Below are positions 3,942 to 12,352 of a DNA stretch of 64,000 nt, piece by piece. Every line of letters begins with the position of its first letter. The first letter of the stretch is position 1. The stretch spans positions 620,001 to 684,000 of the forward strand of contig NZ_BIXZ01000001.1 of assembly GCF_005406125.1 (NCBI RefSeq). Direction: 5' to 3'. The DNA is from Haloarcula mannanilytica (GTDB lineage Archaea; Halobacteriota; Halobacteria; Halobacteriales; Haloarculaceae). The notes under the pieces were generated by a model. The model was not told the origin of the DNA. It saw only the letters and a list, made by a program, of their open reading frames with translations, and did no database searches. A program made the translations under genes and the position numbers.

Positions 3942-5117
3942 TCAGACGGCTAACTGGATTTCGTATTCGGTCAGGTTTTCGTACCCGTCAGCAGTGACGA
4001 CGGCGATATCCTCGATTCTGACCCCGCCCACCTCGGGGTCGTAGAGGCCGGGCTCAATGGTGACGATGTGGCCCGGTTCGAGTTCGCCGCCGTTGGGCGA
4101 CAGCCGCGGGAGTTCGTGAACATCGAGTCCGACGCCGTGGCCCGTGCTGTGGATGAACCCCGTCTCCGTTCGCTCGTCGTCGCGCAGCGTCGGTTCGCCG
4201 GCGTCCTCGTACACGTCACAGACGGCGTCGTGTACGTCCGCGCCGGTCGCGCCGGGTTCCAGCGCGTCGAAGGCAGCCGTCATCGCGCGCTCTGTGAGGT
4301 CGTGCCACTCCCGTACCGCGTCGCTGGGCTCGCCTTTCACGAACGTCCGGGTCATGTCGGCGTGGTACTTCGTCGCCTTGTCCTGCGGGAAGATGTCGAT
4401 GATAATAGGCTCGTGTGCGACAAGCGGGCCGCTCCCACGGTCGTGGGGGTCCGCGGCGTCCGCCCCGCAGGCGACAATTGTCTCGTCGAGCGAGCAGCCG
4501 TTGCGAAGCAGCGTCACCTCGATTTCCTCTTTGACGCGTTCACTCGTCAGCGGTTCCCCGTCCAGTTCGAGCGTGTCGTCGGCCGCGATGTCCGCCGCTT
4601 CGAGCAGCGATTCGGCGGCCGCCATCGCCGCCTCGTTGGCCCGCTGTGCCGTCCGGATGTGGTCGACTTCAATCTCAGTTTTCGTTGCCCGGATCTCCGT
4701 GACGATGCCGTCGGTGTCCGCCGTCACGTCGACGCCGCGTGTGCGCAGGCCGTCCGCAGTTCGAAGCGGGAACCGCGGCGGCACGGCCACGCTATCAACG
4801 TCGTAGGCCGCGAGAAAATCCGCAAGGACGTGCGAGACAGCCTCGTCGGGACCGTACTCCTCGACCTTTTTCTGGTGGTCGAAGTCGACGTACCGCTGGA
4901 CGGTGTCGGCCCGCGACTCGCGCTTGGCGCGGCCGAACTCCAGACTCCGCGGGAAAAGGAGGTGCGTGTCGCCGTCGTACAGCGTGATGAACGGGTCCGG
5001 CGCGTCAAAGCCCGAGAGGTAGTACTGGTCGGAGACCTCGGAATCAGCGTCGAGGAGGTAGCCGTCAACGCCGGCCTCGTCGAGATATGCGTCCAGTGCC
5101 GAGAGATCGGGTTCCAT
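3942..5117 (-). CDS. pepQ: M24-family metallopeptidase (Xaa-Pro aminopeptidase-like)
   Basis: 391 residues with a creatinase-like N-domain (residues 1-150) and a pita-bread catalytic domain. Metal-site signatures are ADMTRTFVKG (Asp), HSTGHGVGLDVHE (His), TIEPGLYDP (Glu) and GGVRIEDIAVV (Glu), in the right order. Homologues remove residues preceding proline from peptides; metal is Mn or Co. The start MEPDLSALDAY at 5117 is preferred; ATGs at 5138 and 5144 are in frame, and the open frame to 5282 has no family character. The dipeptidase/aminopeptidase distinction is not decided by the sequence, so the symbol is tentative. Confidence 0.88.
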   Translation of the reverse strand: MEPDLSALDAYLDEAGVDGYLLDADSEVSDQYYLSGFDAPDPFITLYDGDTHLLFPRSLEFGRAKRESRADTVQRYVDFDHQKKVEEYGPDEAVSHVLADFLAAYDVDSVAVPPRFPLRTADGLRTRGVDVTADTDGIVTEIRATKTEIEVDHIRTAQRANEAAMAAAESLLEAADIAADDTLELDGEPLTSERVKEEIEVTLLRNGCSLDETIVACGADAADPHDRGSGPLVAHEPIIIDIFPQDKATKYHADMTRTFVKGEPSDAVREWHDLTERAMTAAFDALEPGATGADVHDAVCDVYEDAGEPTLRDDERTETGFIHSTGHGVGLDVHELPRLSPNGGELEPGHIVTIEPGLYDPEVGGVRIEDIAVVTADGYENLTEYEIQLAV

Positions 5118-5280
5118 GCCTGCCAGTCGGGTCCCCATCCCCATATACGTCTCCCACTCGGTCGACTCAGCGAACCGGTGATGGACAGTTCTCCTGTCGG
5201 GATGAAGCAACCGTGAGTGACCATGACATCGCACCCTGTTGTGTGGCCACGGGTGCCATACCGATGTAGTTTGGCCGCCC

Positions 5281-5287
5281 ATTTATT
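5281..5287 (+). promoter_or_regulatory. TATA box of the carotenoid operon
   Basis: ATTTATT, centred about 27-30 bases before the crtD ATG at 5314; leaderless start expected. Confidence 0.6.
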
Positions 5288-5313
5288 CACGCTCCAGCCC
5301 CTCTGTACTGGTA

Positions 5314-6801
5314 ATGAGTGACTTGTCCGGTGAGGATGTGACTGTCGTCGGTGGCGGCATCGGCGGCCTCTCCGCTGCCTGTTACCTGGCGGACGCGGGG
5401 GCCGACGTTTCGCTGCTGGAGAAAAACGAGCAACTCGGCGGCCGTGCCTCCCGGCTGGAGGCCGAGGGGTTCCGGTTCGACATGGGGCCGTCGTGGTATC
5501 TGATGCCCGACGTGTTCGAGCGCTTCTTCGCGTACTTCGGCAAGGAGCCACGCGACTACTACGACCTCCAGCGGCTCGACCCCCACTACCGGATTTTCTT
5601 CAAAGACGGCGACCGCATCGACGTGACCGGCGACAACGAGGAGATGGCCCGGAAGTTCGAGGCGTACGAGCCCGGCGCGGGCGAGGCATTCGAGGAGTAC
5701 CTCGCAACGAGTGAGCGCCATTACGAGACGGCGATGAACAAGTTCGTCTACGAGGACCGCTCGGAGCTGCGGGACTGGATTGATCTCGATGTGATGACCG
5801 CGGCCCCGGTCGGCCTCCAGCTCATCGGCTCGATGCAGGGCCACGTCGAGGACTACTTCGAGCATCCGAAGCTCCAGCAGATAATGCAGTACACGCTCGT
5901 CTTCCTCGGCGGCTCGCCCCGGACAACGCCCGCCCTCTACAACATGATGAGCCACGTCGATTTCAACCTCGGCGTCTACTACCCCGACGGCGGCGTCGGC
6001 GCGGTCGTCGACGGCCTCGTCGAACTCGGCGAGGAACTCGGCGTCACCTACGAGACCGACGCCGAGGTCGATGAAATCGCTCGCCGGAAGCAGGGCTTTC
6101 TCGTCGAGACGGTGCATGGCGAGACGACCCATCCCGACGAAGTGGTCGTCAACGCCGACTACGCCCACGCTGAACGGGAACTCCTGCCCGACCACGAGCG
6201 CCAATACGACGACGACTACTGGGACGACAAGACCTACGCGCCGTCTGCCTTCCTCATGTACATGGGCGTCGAGGGCGACGTGGAGCCCCTGGAGCATCAC
6301 ACGCTCGTCCTGCCGACGGACTGGGACCCCCACTTCGATGACATCTTTGAAGACCCCGCATGGCCCGACGATCCGGCCTACTACCTCTGTGTCCCCTCGA
6401 AGACCGACGACAGCGTCGCCCCCGACGGCCACTCGAACCTGTTCGTGCTGGTTCCCATCGCGCCGGGCCTGCACGACGGCGACGAAATCCGCCAAGAGTA
6501 CCGCGAGAAAGTCCTGGCCGACATCGCCGACAACACCGGCGTCGACCTGCGCGACCGCATCGTCTATGAAAAGCAGTTCGCCGTCTCCGACTTCGGCGAG
6601 CGATACAACGCTACCGAAGGAACGGCTCTCGGGCTGGCCCACACGCTCCGCCAGACGGCCCTGTTGCGGCCCAACAACCGCTCGTCGGCCGTCGACAGCC
6701 TCTACTTCACGGGGTCGTTCACGACGCCCGGCATCGGCGTGCCGATGTGTCTCATCAGCGGCGAACACACTGCGAAGGCGCTCATCGAGGATACCGCCTG
6801 A
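5314..6801 (+). CDS. crtD: Carotenoid 3,4-desaturase (phytoene desaturase family)
   Basis: 495-residue FAD oxidoreductase of the CrtI type. The N-terminal dinucleotide fold VVGGGIGGLSAACYLA is followed by LLEKNEQLGGRAS, and the C-terminal FAD signature TGSFTTPGIGVPMCLISG is intact. The gene order with lyeJ and cruF matches the Haloarcula japonica cluster in which this enzyme introduces the 3,4 double bonds during synthesis of the C50 carotenoid bacterioruberin. On sequence alone a phytoene desaturase is also possible; context decides. The start at 5314 fits the TATA box. The lyeJ start follows 3 bases after the stop, so the three genes form one operon. Confidence 0.9.
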   Translation: MSDLSGEDVTVVGGGIGGLSAACYLADAGADVSLLEKNEQLGGRASRLEAEGFRFDMGPSWYLMPDVFERFFAYFGKEPRDYYDLQRLDPHYRIFFKDGDRIDVTGDNEEMARKFEAYEPGAGEAFEEYLATSERHYETAMNKFVYEDRSELRDWIDLDVMTAAPVGLQLIGSMQGHVEDYFEHPKLQQIMQYTLVFLGGSPRTTPALYNMMSHVDFNLGVYYPDGGVGAVVDGLVELGEELGVTYETDAEVDEIARRKQGFLVETVHGETTHPDEVVVNADYAHAERELLPDHERQYDDDYWDDKTYAPSAFLMYMGVEGDVEPLEHHTLVLPTDWDPHFDDIFEDPAWPDDPAYYLCVPSKTDDSVAPDGHSNLFVLVPIAPGLHDGDEIRQEYREKVLADIADNTGVDLRDRIVYEKQFAVSDFGERYNATEGTALGLAHTLRQTALLRPNNRSSAVDSLYFTGSFTTPGIGVPMCLISGEHTAKALIEDTA

Positions 6802-6804
6802 GTA

Positions 6805-7689
6805 ATGCCCGAACTCCCGACCGACCGCATCGACGCCGTCATTCCGCCGGAGGAGACGCTGGTGGGGTATCTGTTGCGCCTCTCCAGACCCCGGTTCTGG
6901 CTGTACCTCGGCGGCCCGGTCATCGTCGGCGTCAGCTACGCGGCCGACGGGCCGGGGGAACTGTTTGCGCCGCTGGCAATCGCGCTGTTCCTGTATTTCA
7001 CCATCCCCGCGAACGTGTTCCTCTACGGCGTCAACGACATCTTCGACGCCGACATCGACGAGCACAATCCCAAAAAAGACGAGGGCCGGGAGGTGAGCTA
7101 CCGCGGGAACAGCGTCGTCACAGCCATCGTCGTCGCCAGCGGCGCACTCGCGCTCCCGTTCGTCCTTGGCCTGCCGATGCTTGGCGTCGTGGCCTTGCTC
7201 GCCTGGCTTGTGCTCTCTGTCGAGTACTCCGCGCCGCCGTTGCGGTTCAAGACGACGCCGTTTCTGGACTCTATCTCCAACGGCCTGTACATCCTGCCCG
7301 GCGTTATCGCCTACGCCGCTATCGAAGGCGTCGCCCCGCCAGCGCCGGCCGTCGCCGGCGCGTGGCTCTGGGCGATGGGAATGCACACCTTCTCGGCGAT
7401 TCCGGACATCGAACCCGACCGCGAGGCCGGCATCCAAACGACGGCGACGTTCCTGGGCGAGTCGAACACCTACTACTACTGCGTGATGTGCTGGCTCACG
7501 GCCGCGTTCGTGTTCACCTACACCCACTGGGTGTTCGGCCTGCTACTGCTCGTCTACCCCGGCCTCGTGTTCGGGATTCTGGGCATCGGCGTCGACATCG
7601 AGGAAGCCTACTGGTGGTACCCGGCAATCAACACCGTCGTCGGCACGGTGTTCACGCTCATCGCCCTGTGGGTGATGCTGTATGGCTGA
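6805..7689 (+). CDS. lyeJ: Lycopene elongase / 1,2-hydratase (UbiA-type prenyltransferase)
   Basis: 294 residues, multi-spanning membrane protein of the UbiA superfamily. The first Asp-rich motif is NDIFDADIDEHNPKKD (about residue 75) and the second is DIEPDREAGIQTTATFL (about 200); both bind Mg-diphosphate. Homologues add C5 dimethylallyl units to lycopene to build C45/C50 carotenoids and also hydrate the 1,2 double bond. It lies between crtD and cruF and overlaps cruF by 8 bases, indicating tight co-translation in the bacterioruberin operon. Confidence 0.92.
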   Translation: MPELPTDRIDAVIPPEETLVGYLLRLSRPRFWLYLGGPVIVGVSYAADGPGELFAPLAIALFLYFTIPANVFLYGVNDIFDADIDEHNPKKDEGREVSYRGNSVVTAIVVASGALALPFVLGLPMLGVVALLAWLVLSVEYSAPPLRFKTTPFLDSISNGLYILPGVIAYAAIEGVAPPAPAVAGAWLWAMGMHTFSAIPDIEPDREAGIQTTATFLGESNTYYYCVMCWLTAAFVFTYTHWVFGLLLLVYPGLVFGILGIGVDIEEAYWWYPAINTVVGTVFTLIALWVMLYG

Positions 7690-8563
7690 CGGCGAAGACT
7701 GGGAACTGGCGGGGTGGGCGCTGCCGGAGACGAGAGGCGACGCGACCGCGCGGTTCGACCGATTCGTCACCGAGAACCGCTTTACCATTGCCGTCGTGTT
7801 CCCGCTCGTCGGCGCGGTTACGCTGCTTGCCAGCGCCGAGGGCCTGCTCCCGGACCCGCTCGCGTTCAACCCCTACTTCGTCCTCTTTGGCACGTTCGTG
7901 ATGCGATTGCCCCTCGTGGCCGGCGTCTTCCCGCTCGTGGATCGCCGGGCCGGGCTAGCGCTGGTCGCGCTGACGCTGTACTCCTATGGCATCGAACTCG
8001 TCGGCGTCAGGACCGGCTGGCCCTACGGAGAGTTTACCTACGGCGTCGACCTCGGCCCGATGCTGCTGGGCGAGGTACCGTTCGGGCTCCCGGTGTTTTT
8101 CTTCCCGCTGGTCCTGAATGCCTACCTGCTCGTCCTGCTGTTGCTCGGTGACCGTGCGGCGTCGACCGCGGTGCGGCTGCTGGCGACGCTTTCGACGGTC
8201 ATGCTCGTCGACCTCGTGCTCGACCCCGGCGCGGTCGCTATCGGCTTCTGGACCTACGACGTGGCCCAGTTCTACGGCGTCCCGTGGCAGAACTACGCGG
8301 GGTGGCTCCTCTCGGGGTCTGTCGCCGTCCTGCTGTTCGACCTCGGGTTCGACCGCGCGGGCCTCCGACAGCGGCTCAAAGACTGTCCGTTCATGCTCGA
8401 TGATCTCGTGAGCTTCATCCTGCTGTGGGGCGGTATCAATCTCTTCTACGCGAACTGGGTGCCGGTCGGTCTGGCGGCGCTGCTGGGTGCCGGCCTGCTG
8501 TGGACGGACCGCTTCGACTTCGATCTCTCGGAGACGCGGCTCGGTCGGGCCGTCTGGCGGTAG
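7682..8563 (+). CDS. cruF: C50 carotenoid 2'',3''-hydratase (bisanhydrobacterioruberin hydratase)
   Basis: 293 residues, hydrophobic with about 7-8 membrane segments and the DUF422/CruF-type motif YGIELVGVRTGWPYGEF followed by Asp/Glu-containing loops. It catalyses the last step, adding water to bisanhydrobacterioruberin to give bacterioruberin, the red pigment that stiffens and protects haloarchaeal membranes. The ATG is inside the lyeJ coding end (8-base overlap). N-terminal residues before the first membrane segment are acidic. The assignment follows family and operon order. Confidence 0.9.
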   Translation: MADGEDWELAGWALPETRGDATARFDRFVTENRFTIAVVFPLVGAVTLLASAEGLLPDPLAFNPYFVLFGTFVMRLPLVAGVFPLVDRRAGLALVALTLYSYGIELVGVRTGWPYGEFTYGVDLGPMLLGEVPFGLPVFFFPLVLNAYLLVLLLLGDRAASTAVRLLATLSTVMLVDLVLDPGAVAIGFWTYDVAQFYGVPWQNYAGWLLSGSVAVLLFDLGFDRAGLRQRLKDCPFMLDDLVSFILLWGGINLFYANWVPVGLAALLGAGLLWTDRFDFDLSETRLGRAVWR

Positions 8564-8629: not shown

Positions 8630-9466
8630 ATGGAGCGAATCCCGTTCGGGGTCCGCCAGCTCGACTCCATCATCAACGGTGGGGCACCTGTCGGGAGCGT
8701 CGTCTTGCTCTCGGGCGAGGCCGGCGCCGGGTCCCGGGAGTTCATGCACACGAGCGCGCTCATCAACGGACTCCAGCAGGTCGACGAGGAGCGCCACGAC
8801 CTCTACTACGGCGACCTCTCGGCCGACGCCGTCGCCCCCGAGGAGGTCCACTACATCTCCTTTACCGCAAGCGAATCGCAACTGGTCGACGAGATGCGGT
8901 TGGCGATGAGCGACGAGGTGGTCGATAAGGGGAGCCAGGCCGTTGAGTTCCACGACCTCTCGGAGCGGTACTTCCACATCAGTCCAGTGCCGCGAGACTG
9001 GTACGCCAGCGAAACCGCCTCGATCACCGACCTCCGGGCGCGCCACGAGCGGGAGGACCTGCTCGGCACGCTCGGCATGGTCCTGAACGAGGTGGCGGCG
9101 AACAACCTCGTCGTCATCGACTCGCTGTCGGATCTGGTCAGCGCGATGGGCGAAGAAATCGACTGGTCGGACATCAGCTCGCTCGTCCAGGGCATCCAGA
9201 AGGCGGCCCACCAGTGGGGCGGTCTCATCCTCCTGCATATCAACCACGAGACGCTGTCGTCGGTTCGCCACGGCCAGCTCGTCGACGCCTCCCACGGCAC
9301 GATGGAGTTCGCATGGGAGTCGGGCGGCTCCTCCCGGGCGCGAACCCTCGTCGTCCGGCAGTTTCGCGGCGTCCTCTCACAGATCGAGGACGAGGACATC
9401 GTCCAGTTCGAGACGGAACTGGGCGAGGCCGGCTTCGACATCAGCGACGTGCGCAAGATTCGATAA
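8630..9466 (+). CDS. KaiC/RecA-fold protein with degenerate Walker A (HTR-like)
   Basis: 278 residues. It opens RIPFGVRQLDSIINGGAPVGSVVLLSG like archaeal KaiC/RadA-type ATPases. Where GxxxxGK(S/T) is expected it has GEAGAGSREF, so the P-loop lysine is a serine. A Walker B-like strand NLVVIDSLSDL (about residue 162) and a following GGLILLHINHETL strand are intact. Haloarchaeal homologues are annotated HTR-like protein or recombinase RecA. Loss of the lysine argues for weak or no ATP hydrolysis; a nucleotide-sensing or scaffolding role is an inference. The following gene starts 134 bases downstream with its own promoter. Confidence 0.8.
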   Translation: MERIPFGVRQLDSIINGGAPVGSVVLLSGEAGAGSREFMHTSALINGLQQVDEERHDLYYGDLSADAVAPEEVHYISFTASESQLVDEMRLAMSDEVVDKGSQAVEFHDLSERYFHISPVPRDWYASETASITDLRARHEREDLLGTLGMVLNEVAANNLVVIDSLSDLVSAMGEEIDWSDISSLVQGIQKAAHQWGGLILLHINHETLSSVRHGQLVDASHGTMEFAWESGGSSRARTLVVRQFRGVLSQIEDEDIVQFETELGEAGFDISDVRKIR

Positions 9467-9599
9467 CGATAGCGGGCGGTACGGCTGCCTGTAACCGTCG
9501 AGAAAGGACAATGAGCGGCGTGTCGACGGCTCGCTCCCGCTCTCGGTATCTGAAATCGGCGGTAAACCCTTATCAGGCTTGTTCCTCAATGGTGTCGTA

Positions 9600-10481
9600 A
9601 TGTCCTCCGAGTCGACCGAAGACGGGGGAGTCCACGTCGAGCTATCCACAGATTTAGACGAGTGGCTGACCGAGCAGGCCGAGACGCTTGACGTTCCGCG
9701 TGAGGTCGTCATGGAGCAACTACTGGCCGCATACAGGGCCTCGGCCGAGTTCGACGACGGGATCGATGACGTGGCCCACCCGCCAGCGGACGAACTCGAC
9801 GCCGTCGTCGCCGCGGCCGTCGACGAGCGGCTAGCGGAGTCAGTCGAAGCGGCGACCGAAAGCGCCGTAAGTTCCCGCCTCCCCGATATCGTCGACACGG
9901 TGGAACGCCAGCTCGCGGAGCGGTTCGACGCGCTCGAAGCCGACTTTCAGGCCAAAATCGACGACGTTCGCGAGCGCGTCGTGCAGGTCAAACGGGAGAC
10001 CGACGCGAAAGCGCCAGCCGACCACAGCCACGAGGAGTTCGACCGCATCGATGCGCTCAGTCAAGATATCGAGGGGTTGGAGACGGAAATCGACGCGCTT
10101 CGGGACGACGTGACCGAATCGCTCGACACACAGGACGACCAGCTCGACGACATCGGTGAGCTCGACGACCGCTTGGACGATGTCGAGGACAAACTCACCC
10201 GCGTCGCCTGGGTCGTCAGCGACCTCCGCGACGACCAGGGCGGGCGGGACCAGAACCAGAAAGCCGTCGATCGACTGAAACGCGCGGCAGCACAGGAAAA
10301 CATCTCGACGGCCCGGTGTTCGAACTGCAGCGAGCAGGTCGAAATCGGGCTGTTGACCGAACCCCAGTGTCCCCACTGCAACGCGACAGTGTCGGACGTG
10401 CGGCCCGAGGGCGGCATCATCCGTTCGAAGGCACGGCTGGTGGCCGCGGCACAGCTCGGCCCGGGAGAGAGCGATGAGTGA
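9600..10481 (+). CDS. Coiled-coil protein with RHH-like N-terminus and C-terminal zinc ribbon
   Basis: 293 residues. Residues 10-45 (VELSTDLDEWLTEQAETL ... EVVMEQLLAAY) resemble a CopG-like helix pair. Residues about 90-210 are heptad-rich acidic coiled coil, and residues about 235-265 hold CSNCSEQVEIG and CPHCNATV, a two-knuckle zinc ribbon. It overlaps the next gene by 8 bases, so the two products probably work together. Conserved in haloarchaea from memory, with no assigned function. The start at 9600 is preceded by a TTATC-type element at about -30. Possible DNA or chromatin-associated role (inference). Confidence 0.78.
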   Translation: MSSESTEDGGVHVELSTDLDEWLTEQAETLDVPREVVMEQLLAAYRASAEFDDGIDDVAHPPADELDAVVAAAVDERLAESVEAATESAVSSRLPDIVDTVERQLAERFDALEADFQAKIDDVRERVVQVKRETDAKAPADHSHEEFDRIDALSQDIEGLETEIDALRDDVTESLDTQDDQLDDIGELDDRLDDVEDKLTRVAWVVSDLRDDQGGRDQNQKAVDRLKRAAAQENISTARCSNCSEQVEIGLLTEPQCPHCNATVSDVRPEGGIIRSKARLVAAAQLGPGESDE

Positions 10482-11181
10482 CGACGAGCGAGATCCGTTC
10501 GAGGAGCTCGACCCTGGCGACGACCGCGAGGGCGACCCGTTCGAGCGCCTCGGAGAGGGGCCTGACAGCGAAGAAGCCCCGGAAACCGAGACGGATGCCG
10601 ACACGTCAGAGCCGCCGGAAGCGCCCCCGTTCGGGGACGATGCGGCCGACCTGACAGAGTCACACCAGTCAGCCGACGACGGCTGGTCGGGAAGCGAGTC
10701 ACGTGACACATCAGCGTCCGAGACGCCCGAAACGGATCCCGCTGGAGACGGTGCTGACGACCTCCTCTCGGCCGTCGATACCGAGGAGTTCCGTTCGGAC
10801 TCGGTAACCGAGACGGACGATGCCGGTTTGGGGTCGTCGACGGACCCGGAAGACCCCTTCTCGGGGATGGACGGCCCTGGCGAGGACCCGTTCGGAAGCG
10901 GCGAGAGCGCGTTCGAGCGGGTCGATGTCGACCATATCGACGCCGACAAGGTGTGGGCGGAAATCGCCGAGGACGGAGACAGTGAGGACCTGTCGGAGAG
11001 TCGCTATGCGGAGGTGTCGAAACACCGCTACTGCGAGCAGTGCGAGCACTTCTCCGAGCCACCCAACGCCCGCTGCACGAACGACGGGACCGAGATCATG
11101 GAGTTTCTCGACATGGAGACGGTCCGGCTTCTGAACTGTCCGGTCGTCGCCGAGCAACACGAGATCGAGCGCGAGCAGTAA
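10474..11181 (+). CDS. Acidic protein with C-terminal zinc-binding motif
   Basis: 235 residues. The first 150 are extremely Asp/Glu/Ser-rich, likely disordered, with repeats of the type DPFEELDPGDD and DPFERLGEG. The last 75 form a folded domain with cysteines CEQCEHFSEPPNARCTND and a later NCPVV, able to bind one zinc. It starts inside the preceding gene (8-base overlap) and ends 33 bases before the TFS gene. The repeated DPF motifs look like short linear docking sites (inference). No enzymatic signature. Confidence 0.78.
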   Translation: MSDDERDPFEELDPGDDREGDPFERLGEGPDSEEAPETETDADTSEPPEAPPFGDDAADLTESHQSADDGWSGSESRDTSASETPETDPAGDGADDLLSAVDTEEFRSDSVTETDDAGLGSSTDPEDPFSGMDGPGEDPFGSGESAFERVDVDHIDADKVWAEIAEDGDSEDLSESRYAEVSKHRYCEQCEHFSEPPNARCTNDGTEIMEFLDMETVRLLNCPVVAEQHEIEREQ

Positions 11182-11213: not shown

Positions 11214-11537
11214 ATGCAGTTCTGCGACGACTGTGGCTCGATGATGCACGCTGACGGTGACGAGATGGTCTGTCAGTCCTGTGGCACGCGAGTTACCAAA
11301 GACGAGGACCGCGCGGAAGAGTTCGTCAGCACGGCCGAACAGAGCGGCGACGAACTGATCGAGACCGAAGAGGGCTCGAACTTCGAGGGGAAGCCGACGG
11401 CCGACGACGTGACCTGTGAGGAGTGCGGCCACGGGAAAGCGTGGTACACGATCAAACAGACGGGGTCAGCCGACGAACCGCCGACGCGGTTTTTCAAGTG
11501 TCAGGACTGTGGCCACCGATGGCGCGAGTACAACTAA
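11214..11537 (+). CDS. tfs: Transcript cleavage factor TFS (RPB9/TFIIS-like)
   Basis: 107 residues. The N-terminal zinc ribbon (CDDCGSMM ... CQSCGTRV) and C-terminal zinc ribbon (CEECGHGKA ... CQDCGHRW) are joined by an acidic linker. The tip loop SADEPPTRFFKC carries the Asp-Glu pair that stimulates RNA cleavage by backtracked RNA polymerase. Length and both ribbons match archaeal TFS. The chosen start MQFCDDCGS matches the family's start. The stop codon overlaps the convergent HTH gene by 3 bases. Confidence 0.93.
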   Translation: MQFCDDCGSMMHADGDEMVCQSCGTRVTKDEDRAEEFVSTAEQSGDELIETEEGSNFEGKPTADDVTCEECGHGKAWYTIKQTGSADEPPTRFFKCQDCGHRWREYN

Positions 11538-12352
11538 AGTAGCGAATCCAGTATCCTGAGTTCCTCTTCCTCGGAGATATTCTCGGAGTTCAGACACGCA
11601 TGGACGACTTTGTGGACGAGTTCCGGGTCCTGAAACGGCTGCGGGGAACCGCCGCCGTCCGCGACAGTTTCGACCTGGCCTTCGAGCTCGGCCAGTTGCT
11701 CGGAGAGGTCCTCTACGGTCGACTGGAACGTGGTGATGGTGGTGTTCACTTCGCCGGCCGCCGTCGCGGTCTCCGGCGGCGGGTAGTCGCCGTCGTCCGT
11801 CTTGGGCTCGGATTCTGACGCCCGTCTGTCTGCTCCGTCGGGGGACTCGGTCGGTTCGGAGTCTGACGACTGCGTTTCGGGTTCGTCCGGGCTCGCTGTC
11901 GACTCGGTCCCTTCGGGCTCTGTGTCGCCGAGCACAGCGTTGGCGAACGCCTCGCGGTTCGCCCAGTCGAACCCGGCGATCCCGTTGACGCGGTTGCTCA
12001 CTGTCGAGGCGGTCACGCCGAGTTTCTCGGCGAGATCCCGCTGGGACGCGGTCGGGTGTTTCCGAATCGCTTTGATCGTCTCGTACTCGGTCGACGAGAG
12101 CTCATCGGGGTCCGGAAGCGACTGGGGCGCTGACGATTGGTCGCCGGACGACTGCTCGGACGCGTTCGGTTCGTCGTCCTCTGCCGGATCGCCGTGTTCT
12201 TCGAGGACACGTTCGACGAGGTCCGTTGTCGCACTCGGAACTTCCGACGCAAGCTCGGCGATGGAGGCCTCGGGATTCTCGGCCGCAACGTCGAGTATTT
12301 GCTTGTGACGCATCGATTTGGGGACCGTTCGGCCCTTCGTTGATTTGCTCAT
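11534..12352 (-). CDS. Winged-helix/HTH regulator with disordered linker and coiled-coil tail
   Basis: 272 residues. Two HTH-like segments are visible: residues 10-55 (KQILDVAAENPEASIAELAS ... LVERVLEEHG) and residues about 90-135 (TEYETIKAIRKHPTASQRD, LAEKLGVTASTVSNRVNGI), the latter a MarR/Lrp-like recognition helix. A Ser/Glu/Asp-rich linker (145-195) leads to a C-terminal helical part (TTFQSTVEDLSEQLAELEG). The open frame starts at 12364 but MSKSTKG at 12352 begins the basic, conserved-looking N-terminus. Upstream lie two perfect palindromes (12437-12451, 12471-12494) that may be its operators. Confidence 0.85.
   Translation of the reverse strand: MSKSTKGRTVPKSMRHKQILDVAAENPEASIAELASEVPSATTDLVERVLEEHGDPAEDDEPNASEQSSGDQSSAPQSLPDPDELSSTEYETIKAIRKHPTASQRDLAEKLGVTASTVSNRVNGIAGFDWANREAFANAVLGDTEPEGTESTASPDEPETQSSDSEPTESPDGADRRASESEPKTDDGDYPPPETATAAGEVNTTITTFQSTVEDLSEQLAELEGQVETVADGGGSPQPFQDPELVHKVVHACLNSENISEEEELRILDSLL

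Follow-up and report, generated by a model that had tools for sequence, protein, structure and literature searches.

What does a KaiC-like protein do once the motifs for ATP use have been lost, and with which proteins does it work? This question is raised by a locus in a 64,000-nucleotide stretch of the Haloarcula mannanilytica genome (contig NZ_BIXZ01000001.1, positions 620,001 to 684,000; the window). A gene for a degenerate KaiC-like protein is followed there by two overlapping genes, one for an RHH-like/coiled-coil/zinc-ribbon protein (termed CCzn) and one for an acidic protein with DPF motifs and a zinc site (the DPF protein), and these three genes are referred to as the module (Table 1). 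KaiC-like proteins have been proposed as main signalling hubs of archaea. The comparison of haloarchaeal genomes suggests a four-part regulatory system, which comprises the dead KaiC, CCzn, the DPF protein and one working KaiC encoded at an unlinked locus.

Table 1. Features of the module and its neighbour, in coordinates of the window.
Feature	Position	Strand	Basis
KaiC-like gene, pseudo-ATPase (278 aa)	8630..9466	+	ORF, PF06745, AF2 model, fold match
Degenerate Walker A GEAGAGSREF (residues 29-38)	8714..8743	+	Aligned with GTSGTGKTVF of KaiC; orthologue alignment
TA (residues 79-80) replacing the KaiC catalytic Glu pair	8864..8869	+	hhalign; orthologue alignment
Walker B Asp164	9119..9121	+	Orthologue alignment
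Highly conserved C-terminal stretch RARTLVV..FRGVLS..E.E.IV.FET...GFDISDVRKIR	9341..9463	+	Orthologue comparison
CCzn gene (293 aa), RHH-like/coiled-coil/zinc-ribbon	9600..10481	+	ORF from ATG; sequence; AF2 model
RHH-like N-terminus (about residues 8-52)	9621..9755	+	AF2 helices; weak Foldseek rows
HxH (His142, His144), loop between two long helices	10023..10031	+	AF2 model; alignment
Zinc-ribbon CxxC...CPHC (Cys240, 243, 257, 260)	10317..10379	+	Sequence, AF2 model, alignment
Acidic DPF/zinc gene (235 aa)	10474..11181	+	ORF; 8 bp start overlap with CCzn gene
DPF-motif part, acidic and probably disordered	10474..11031	+	Motif counts versus shuffles
Zinc motif CxxC...C...CP (Cys187, 190, 201, 222)	11032..11139	+	Sequence; alignment
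TFS gene, neighbour; not counted in module	11214..11537	+	TIGR01384 above its cut-off

The open reading frames were located where the first-pass annotation had placed them, with the KaiC-like gene first, the overlapping pair second and TFS next. The KaiC-like and CCzn genes are separated by 133 bp, and the DPF gene and TFS by 32 bp. By eye, a TATA-like TTTAAG is observed 29 bp 5´ of the KaiC-like ATG and a TTATCA 30 bp 5´ of the CCzn ATG, which suggests that the KaiC-like gene and the CCzn-DPF pair may have separate promoters. The gene upstream of the module in most genera is one that we take, from its sequence read by eye, to be beta-RFAP synthase, a metabolic and unrelated gene. The carotenoid genes crtI, ubiA and cruF were rejected as parts of the module, since they lie directly upstream only in Haloarcula loci among those read. 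At the other end, an HTH gene on the minus strand (11537-12349), with a coiled-coil-like C-terminal part and a weak DUF7310 match, adjoins TFS in Haloarcula.

The replacement of GK(S/T) by GEAGAGSREF, pointed out in the first-pass annotation, is borne out as a fixed trait. The Walker A Lys is found in 0 of 109 distinct orthologues, as is the Ser or Thr that should follow it, and Arg occupies the Ser/Thr position in 107; the two exceptions carry Pro (genome G134) and Glu. GK(S/T) is also missing from all 80 named loci examined (the best 80 of 207 relatives). The segment YISFTASES was aligned by hhalign with YLSFEEDES of the intact KaiC L198, and the first catalytic Glu is present in none of the 109 orthologues, nearly all of which have Thr at this position. 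The Walker B Asp is retained in 109/109, and together with this residue the glycines of the P-loop are nearly invariant. The fold appears to be preserved. The protein matches PF06745 at 35.9 bits (cut-off 26.6), and its single-chain AF2 model has a pLDDT of 87.3 and a pTM of 0.87. KaiC and FlaH chains lead the VIA ranking of this model, which covers Foldseek's own matches only (Z 20-22, with FlaH chains at Z 21), and the KaiC chain 8dba_B superimposes with a Z of 22.2 and 2.6 Å over 215 residues at 22% identity. Because the motifs are lost and the predicted fold is matched over the full length, the protein is, as judged from alignment and model, a KaiC in its descent and its fold but has lost the chemistry of one.

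CCzn was described in the first pass as an RHH-like/coiled-coil/zinc-ribbon protein, and an RHH-like N-terminus, a coiled coil and a CxxC...CPHC motif are all seen in the sequence and the AF2 model. Two predicted helices at the N-terminus (17-30 and 34-52) precede a long helix pair (63-137 and 145-232). The two His of the HxH motif are kept in 44/47 and 45/47 sequences, and the four Cys of the putative zinc ribbon are invariant in 47/47. Foldseek returned CopG, StnY, CdbA, PutA, NikA and Arc among weak rows for the N-terminus; the best of the RHH matches is CopG 1b01, a weak one (1.6 Å over 38 columns, E 1.5). The RHH strand is unformed in the monomer model, and no RHH sequence match was found in the PDB. 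Family profile searches assigned CCzn to no named family and gave only sub-cut-off coiled-coil and zinc noise. Second, weaker CCzn-like matches lie away from the module in nine genomes, mostly of family f4 (G130, G139, G151, G165, G172, G181, G196, G206 and G217), and may be paralogues.

In the DPF protein, the four Cys of the candidate zinc motif are invariant in 40/40 members. DPF motifs are strongly enriched over composition shuffles within Haloarculaceae (80 observed versus 2.7 expected in 27 sequences) and far less frequent elsewhere (12 versus 0.8 in 25 sequences from other families), where a PL(S/G)(D/E)L motif is found (14 observed versus 0.0 expected). The initial description of an acidic DPF-repeat protein thus needs one correction, since the gene pair extends across the class, whereas the DPF motif is mostly a feature of Haloarculaceae. 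Pfam matched 0/40 members, and the search for a solved structural relative gave none (best E 2).

The three-gene order, for which conservation across haloarchaea had been named as a check, holds across the class Halobacteria. KaiC-like gene, CCzn gene and DPF gene follow one another on one strand in 32 of 36 stretches within Haloarculaceae, in 31 of 40 stretches from other families and in 71 named loci among the best 80 of 207 relatives; a strict overlap rule gave 28/36, 22/40 and 59/80, and the remainder, re-admitted by hand, are cases with an overlap of more than 50 bp between profile envelopes. The named loci among these 80 include Haloarcula, Halorhabdus, Halosimplex, Natronomonas, Halorubrum, Halobellus, Natrinema and Halostella. 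Unlinking of the genes, which the first-pass annotation regarded as evidence against a complex, does occur. The KaiC-like gene is separated from the CCzn-DPF pair in 14 of 145 genomes (G130, G137, G143, G152, G158, G165, G177, G188, G191, G193, G196, G214, G217 and G230), yet CCzn and DPF are still paired and all three genes are kept in each, which suggests that the link within the module is independent of position.

The neighbouring TFS gene provides the basis for an alternative reading, in which the module would serve transcription elongation together with TFS, its degenerate KaiC ring, RHH and zinc proteins would bind RNA polymerase, and the relation to the working KaiC would be indirect. 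By the rule of the script, TFS lies less than 400 bp after the module in 17/36 Haloarculaceae stretches, in 16/40 stretches of other families and in 41 named loci among the best 80 of 207 relatives, but it lies away from the module in many genomes. The zinc ribbon of CCzn weakly resembles RNA polymerase subunit P (E 0.034 by profile; 9bct_P, E 0.47 by Foldseek), although likeness between zinc ribbons arises by chance. In bacteria, BcsE, one of whose domains is a dead KaiC-like one, is reported to bind components of Nus antitermination (PMC7439463). However, TFS is retained in 24/24 of the searched genomes that miss all or part of the module. Because TFS survives where the module is absent or partial, the RNA polymerase role that had been proposed from its position is weak, and we regard the elongation reading as doubtful. 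The undescribed complex proposed along with it fares better, as one conserved three-gene unit with plausible subunits.

The presence of the three genes was compared across 145 genomes, in which the KaiC-like gene was found in 122, the DPF gene in 122 and the CCzn gene in 123. KaiC-like and DPF genes are both present in 121 genomes and both absent in 22 (phi 0.95), the exceptions being G134 and G212; the latter may be an assembly gap, since its DPF gene reaches the contig end. KaiC-like and CCzn genes are both present in 121 and both absent in 21 (phi 0.92). Genomes G128 and G210 have weak CCzn matches without the other module genes, and the relic in G210 covers 102 profile positions beside TFS. 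In 16 of 20 module-free stretches, beta-RFAP synthase (identified by eye) is followed by TFS on the same strand at a distance of 0-1.9 kb; of the other four, L244, L245 and L256 are without beta-RFAP synthase and L251 is at a contig end. G170 encodes a divergent KaiC-like protein in a single frame (L191, 5001-6077, minus strand), with an acidic insert of about 70 residues that contains a DPF motif, and its DPF gene is reduced to a remnant that encodes a shortened protein.

The fourth component lies outside the window in the same genome (G000:C1:1003180-1004385). It is an intact KaiC with the normal P-loop GSAGTGKTTF, and its acidic N-terminal tail contains many PF, FE and FG motifs. Haloferax volcanii cirB is flanked by NADH oxidase and ATP-NAD kinase genes (PMC3941300). 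In L285 an NAD kinase-like gene, and in L291 a nitroreductase-like gene, was identified by eye next to the intact KaiC. The published cirB primers, translated by eye, fit the intact KaiC, and the cirD primers fit L199. On the basis of these flanking genes and primer translations, the protein is called an apparent CirB orthologue; the CirB of H. volcanii was reported as 30 kDa, which is smaller than the 402 aa of the intact KaiC here. Loss of any cir gene in H. volcanii is reported to render the light-dependent expression of the other cir genes arrhythmic (PMC3941300). In CirB-like KaiCs (L282-L293), a DWFE(R/S/Q)A motif is conserved at the very start, and the acidic repeats after it (FG, FE or PF) vary from genus to genus.

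The distribution of this apparent CirB closely follows that of the module. Of the 59 genomes compared first, 49 have it and 10 lack it, the ten being those without the KaiC-like gene. Across the 145 genomes, CirB and the KaiC-like gene agree in 142 (both in 120, neither in 22; phi 0.92). The KaiC-like gene occurs without CirB in G170 and in G232, in which the module is intact, and CirB occurs without the KaiC-like gene in G212. The corresponding values for control genes in the same genomes are 0.36 for ArlH, 0.34 for a CirD-like KaiC and 0.20 for rhodopsin. Motility and light were rejected as roles of the module, since the distributions of ArlH and rhodopsin differ from its own. In G134, which belongs to a distant lineage, a divergent dead KaiC is followed, directly and after only 9 bp, by the intact KaiC (an orthologue with 48-53% identity). 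The two genes are found at 5095-5982 and 5992-6855 of L162, both on the minus strand. This genome is without CCzn and DPF genes, which indicates that these two proteins are not strictly needed.

The Fisher p value for CirB and the KaiC-like gene is 1.1e-22, a figure that ignores ancestry. Independent pairs were therefore counted on a tree of two genes, beta-RFAP synthase and TFS, with 46 rows. The module state changed at least 7 times on this tree, and CirB agrees in 6/6 supported independent pairs (p 0.03); when one odd long row was left out, 8 changes were found and CirB agrees in 4/4 supported pairs (p 0.125). Mean agreement of the controls on the four-pair tree was 2.3 of 4 for ArlH, 1.4 for rhodopsin and 1.0 for CirD. 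The direction of the co-change of module and CirB is consistent and its statistical power is modest. A common pattern of loss would also be expected if the module and CirB had no direct link and both belonged to a wider set of genes that was lost in certain lineages for a shared ecological reason. The losses do cluster in family f3 plus a few others, and several other genes differ too, with ArlH, for example, being rarer in genomes without the module. Nevertheless, retention and loss of the other KaiCs, of ArlH and of rhodopsins are far more independent, the two KaiCs lie side by side in G134, and the module is cleanly missing between beta-RFAP synthase and TFS in most module-free stretches, so that this explanation appears unlikely.

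Given the lost motifs, the predicted KaiC fold, the gene order, the co-occurrence of four genes and the adjacency in G134, the best reading is a regulatory module that is built around a protein of KaiC fold unable to bind ATP and hydrolyse it normally and that works with the apparent CirB; we assign this reading a probability of roughly 0.55. The partnership of the module with CirB is well supported, whereas contact between the proteins, a mixed ring, binding of DNA or RNA and the direction of the signal are parts of the mechanism that we infer. The dead KaiC would sense whether CirB carries ATP or is phosphorylated, either as a non-hydrolysing ring subunit or as a docking partner. CCzn would provide the output, probably with its RHH and zinc parts bound to nucleic acid, and the acidic zinc protein could act as a flexible adaptor or tether. 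A precedent from bacteria is BcsE, whose dead KaiC-like domain is reported to form oligomers and to bind partners (PMC7439463). In its most specific form, which we put forward tentatively, CirB has the dead KaiC as its obligate partner, perhaps within a mixed ring, and the dead KaiC hands its state on to the RHH/zinc protein on DNA, so that the four proteins constitute an archaeal signalling or timing device. If this is true, a pseudoenzyme with a gene of its own makes up half of the ring, unlike in cyanobacterial KaiC.

The dead P-loop might bind another ligand. The near-invariant glycine-rich loop and Walker B Asp suggest a kept pocket, and the KaiC-like protein could be an independent sensor whose altered, Arg-containing P-loop binds another small molecule, with the CirB pattern reflecting a common pathway and no ring. 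The conservation of the glycines may, however, be structural only, and the Arg is replaced by Pro in G134 and by Glu in one other orthologue; we consider such a sensor improbable. That the KaiC-like protein is instead a RadA/RadB-type recombination mediator, binding DNA without ATP hydrolysis and with CCzn as its partner, is highly improbable, since the weak matches of RadA, Rad51 and RadB profiles are confined to its N-terminal 50 residues, the generic start of the fold, and although a RAD51 paralogue complex is the top Foldseek row, most of the high structural ranks are taken by KaiC and FlaH chains, and linkage and co-occurrence favour KaiC.

Compared with known systems, the dead KaiC shares with KaiC and CirA-D the full-length fold, the Walker B Asp and a PF06745 match above cut-off. 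It differs from them in having no Walker A Lys, Ser/Thr or Glu pair, in its greater length and in its own C-terminal motif; CirA-D were reported with Walker A, Walker B and the Glu pair (PMC3941300). The best NCBIfam profile is that of ArlH (FlaH; NF052589), but the score of 41.9 bits is far below the ArlH cut-off of 215 bits, and the distribution of ArlH is not followed. Inactivated KaiC (iKaiC) domains of archaea, also with HalOD1 in haloarchaea, are already in print (PMC5847659, citing Makarova 2017); these are likewise dead KaiCs, which are presented in that source as domain fusions and arCOGs, whereas a stand-alone gene is found here. The N-terminal domain of BcsE is described in PMC7439463 as having a KaiC-like fold and a lost Walker A, as forming oligomers and as being regulatory and binding partners; it differs in being fused to REC and GGDEF-like domains and in its role in cellulose secretion. 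The CCzn and DPF proteins belong to no named family found, and no account of this module or of a connection with CirB was found in the literature searched, which excluded the Makarova 2017 survey. The pattern of co-occurrence points to three candidate partners for CirB, two of them from unnamed families, and related genomes in which the whole set was either retained or lost provide natural controls.

There are two further dead KaiC families in haloarchaea. A profile of the KaiC-like protein scores 105 bits on L002/L076 (P-loop GASDAGGD), 118 bits on L073 (GAPDAGTD) and 143 bits on L075 (GPFGTGYQ), whereas the canonical KaiCs of the window's genome reach only about 13-21 bits, so that the degenerate KaiC proteins make up a separate group. 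No zinc gene lies beside the second dead KaiC of the window's genome (L076, G000:C5:159830-174663, positions 6926-7852); by eye, its neighbours are ppsA-like and decarboxylase-like.
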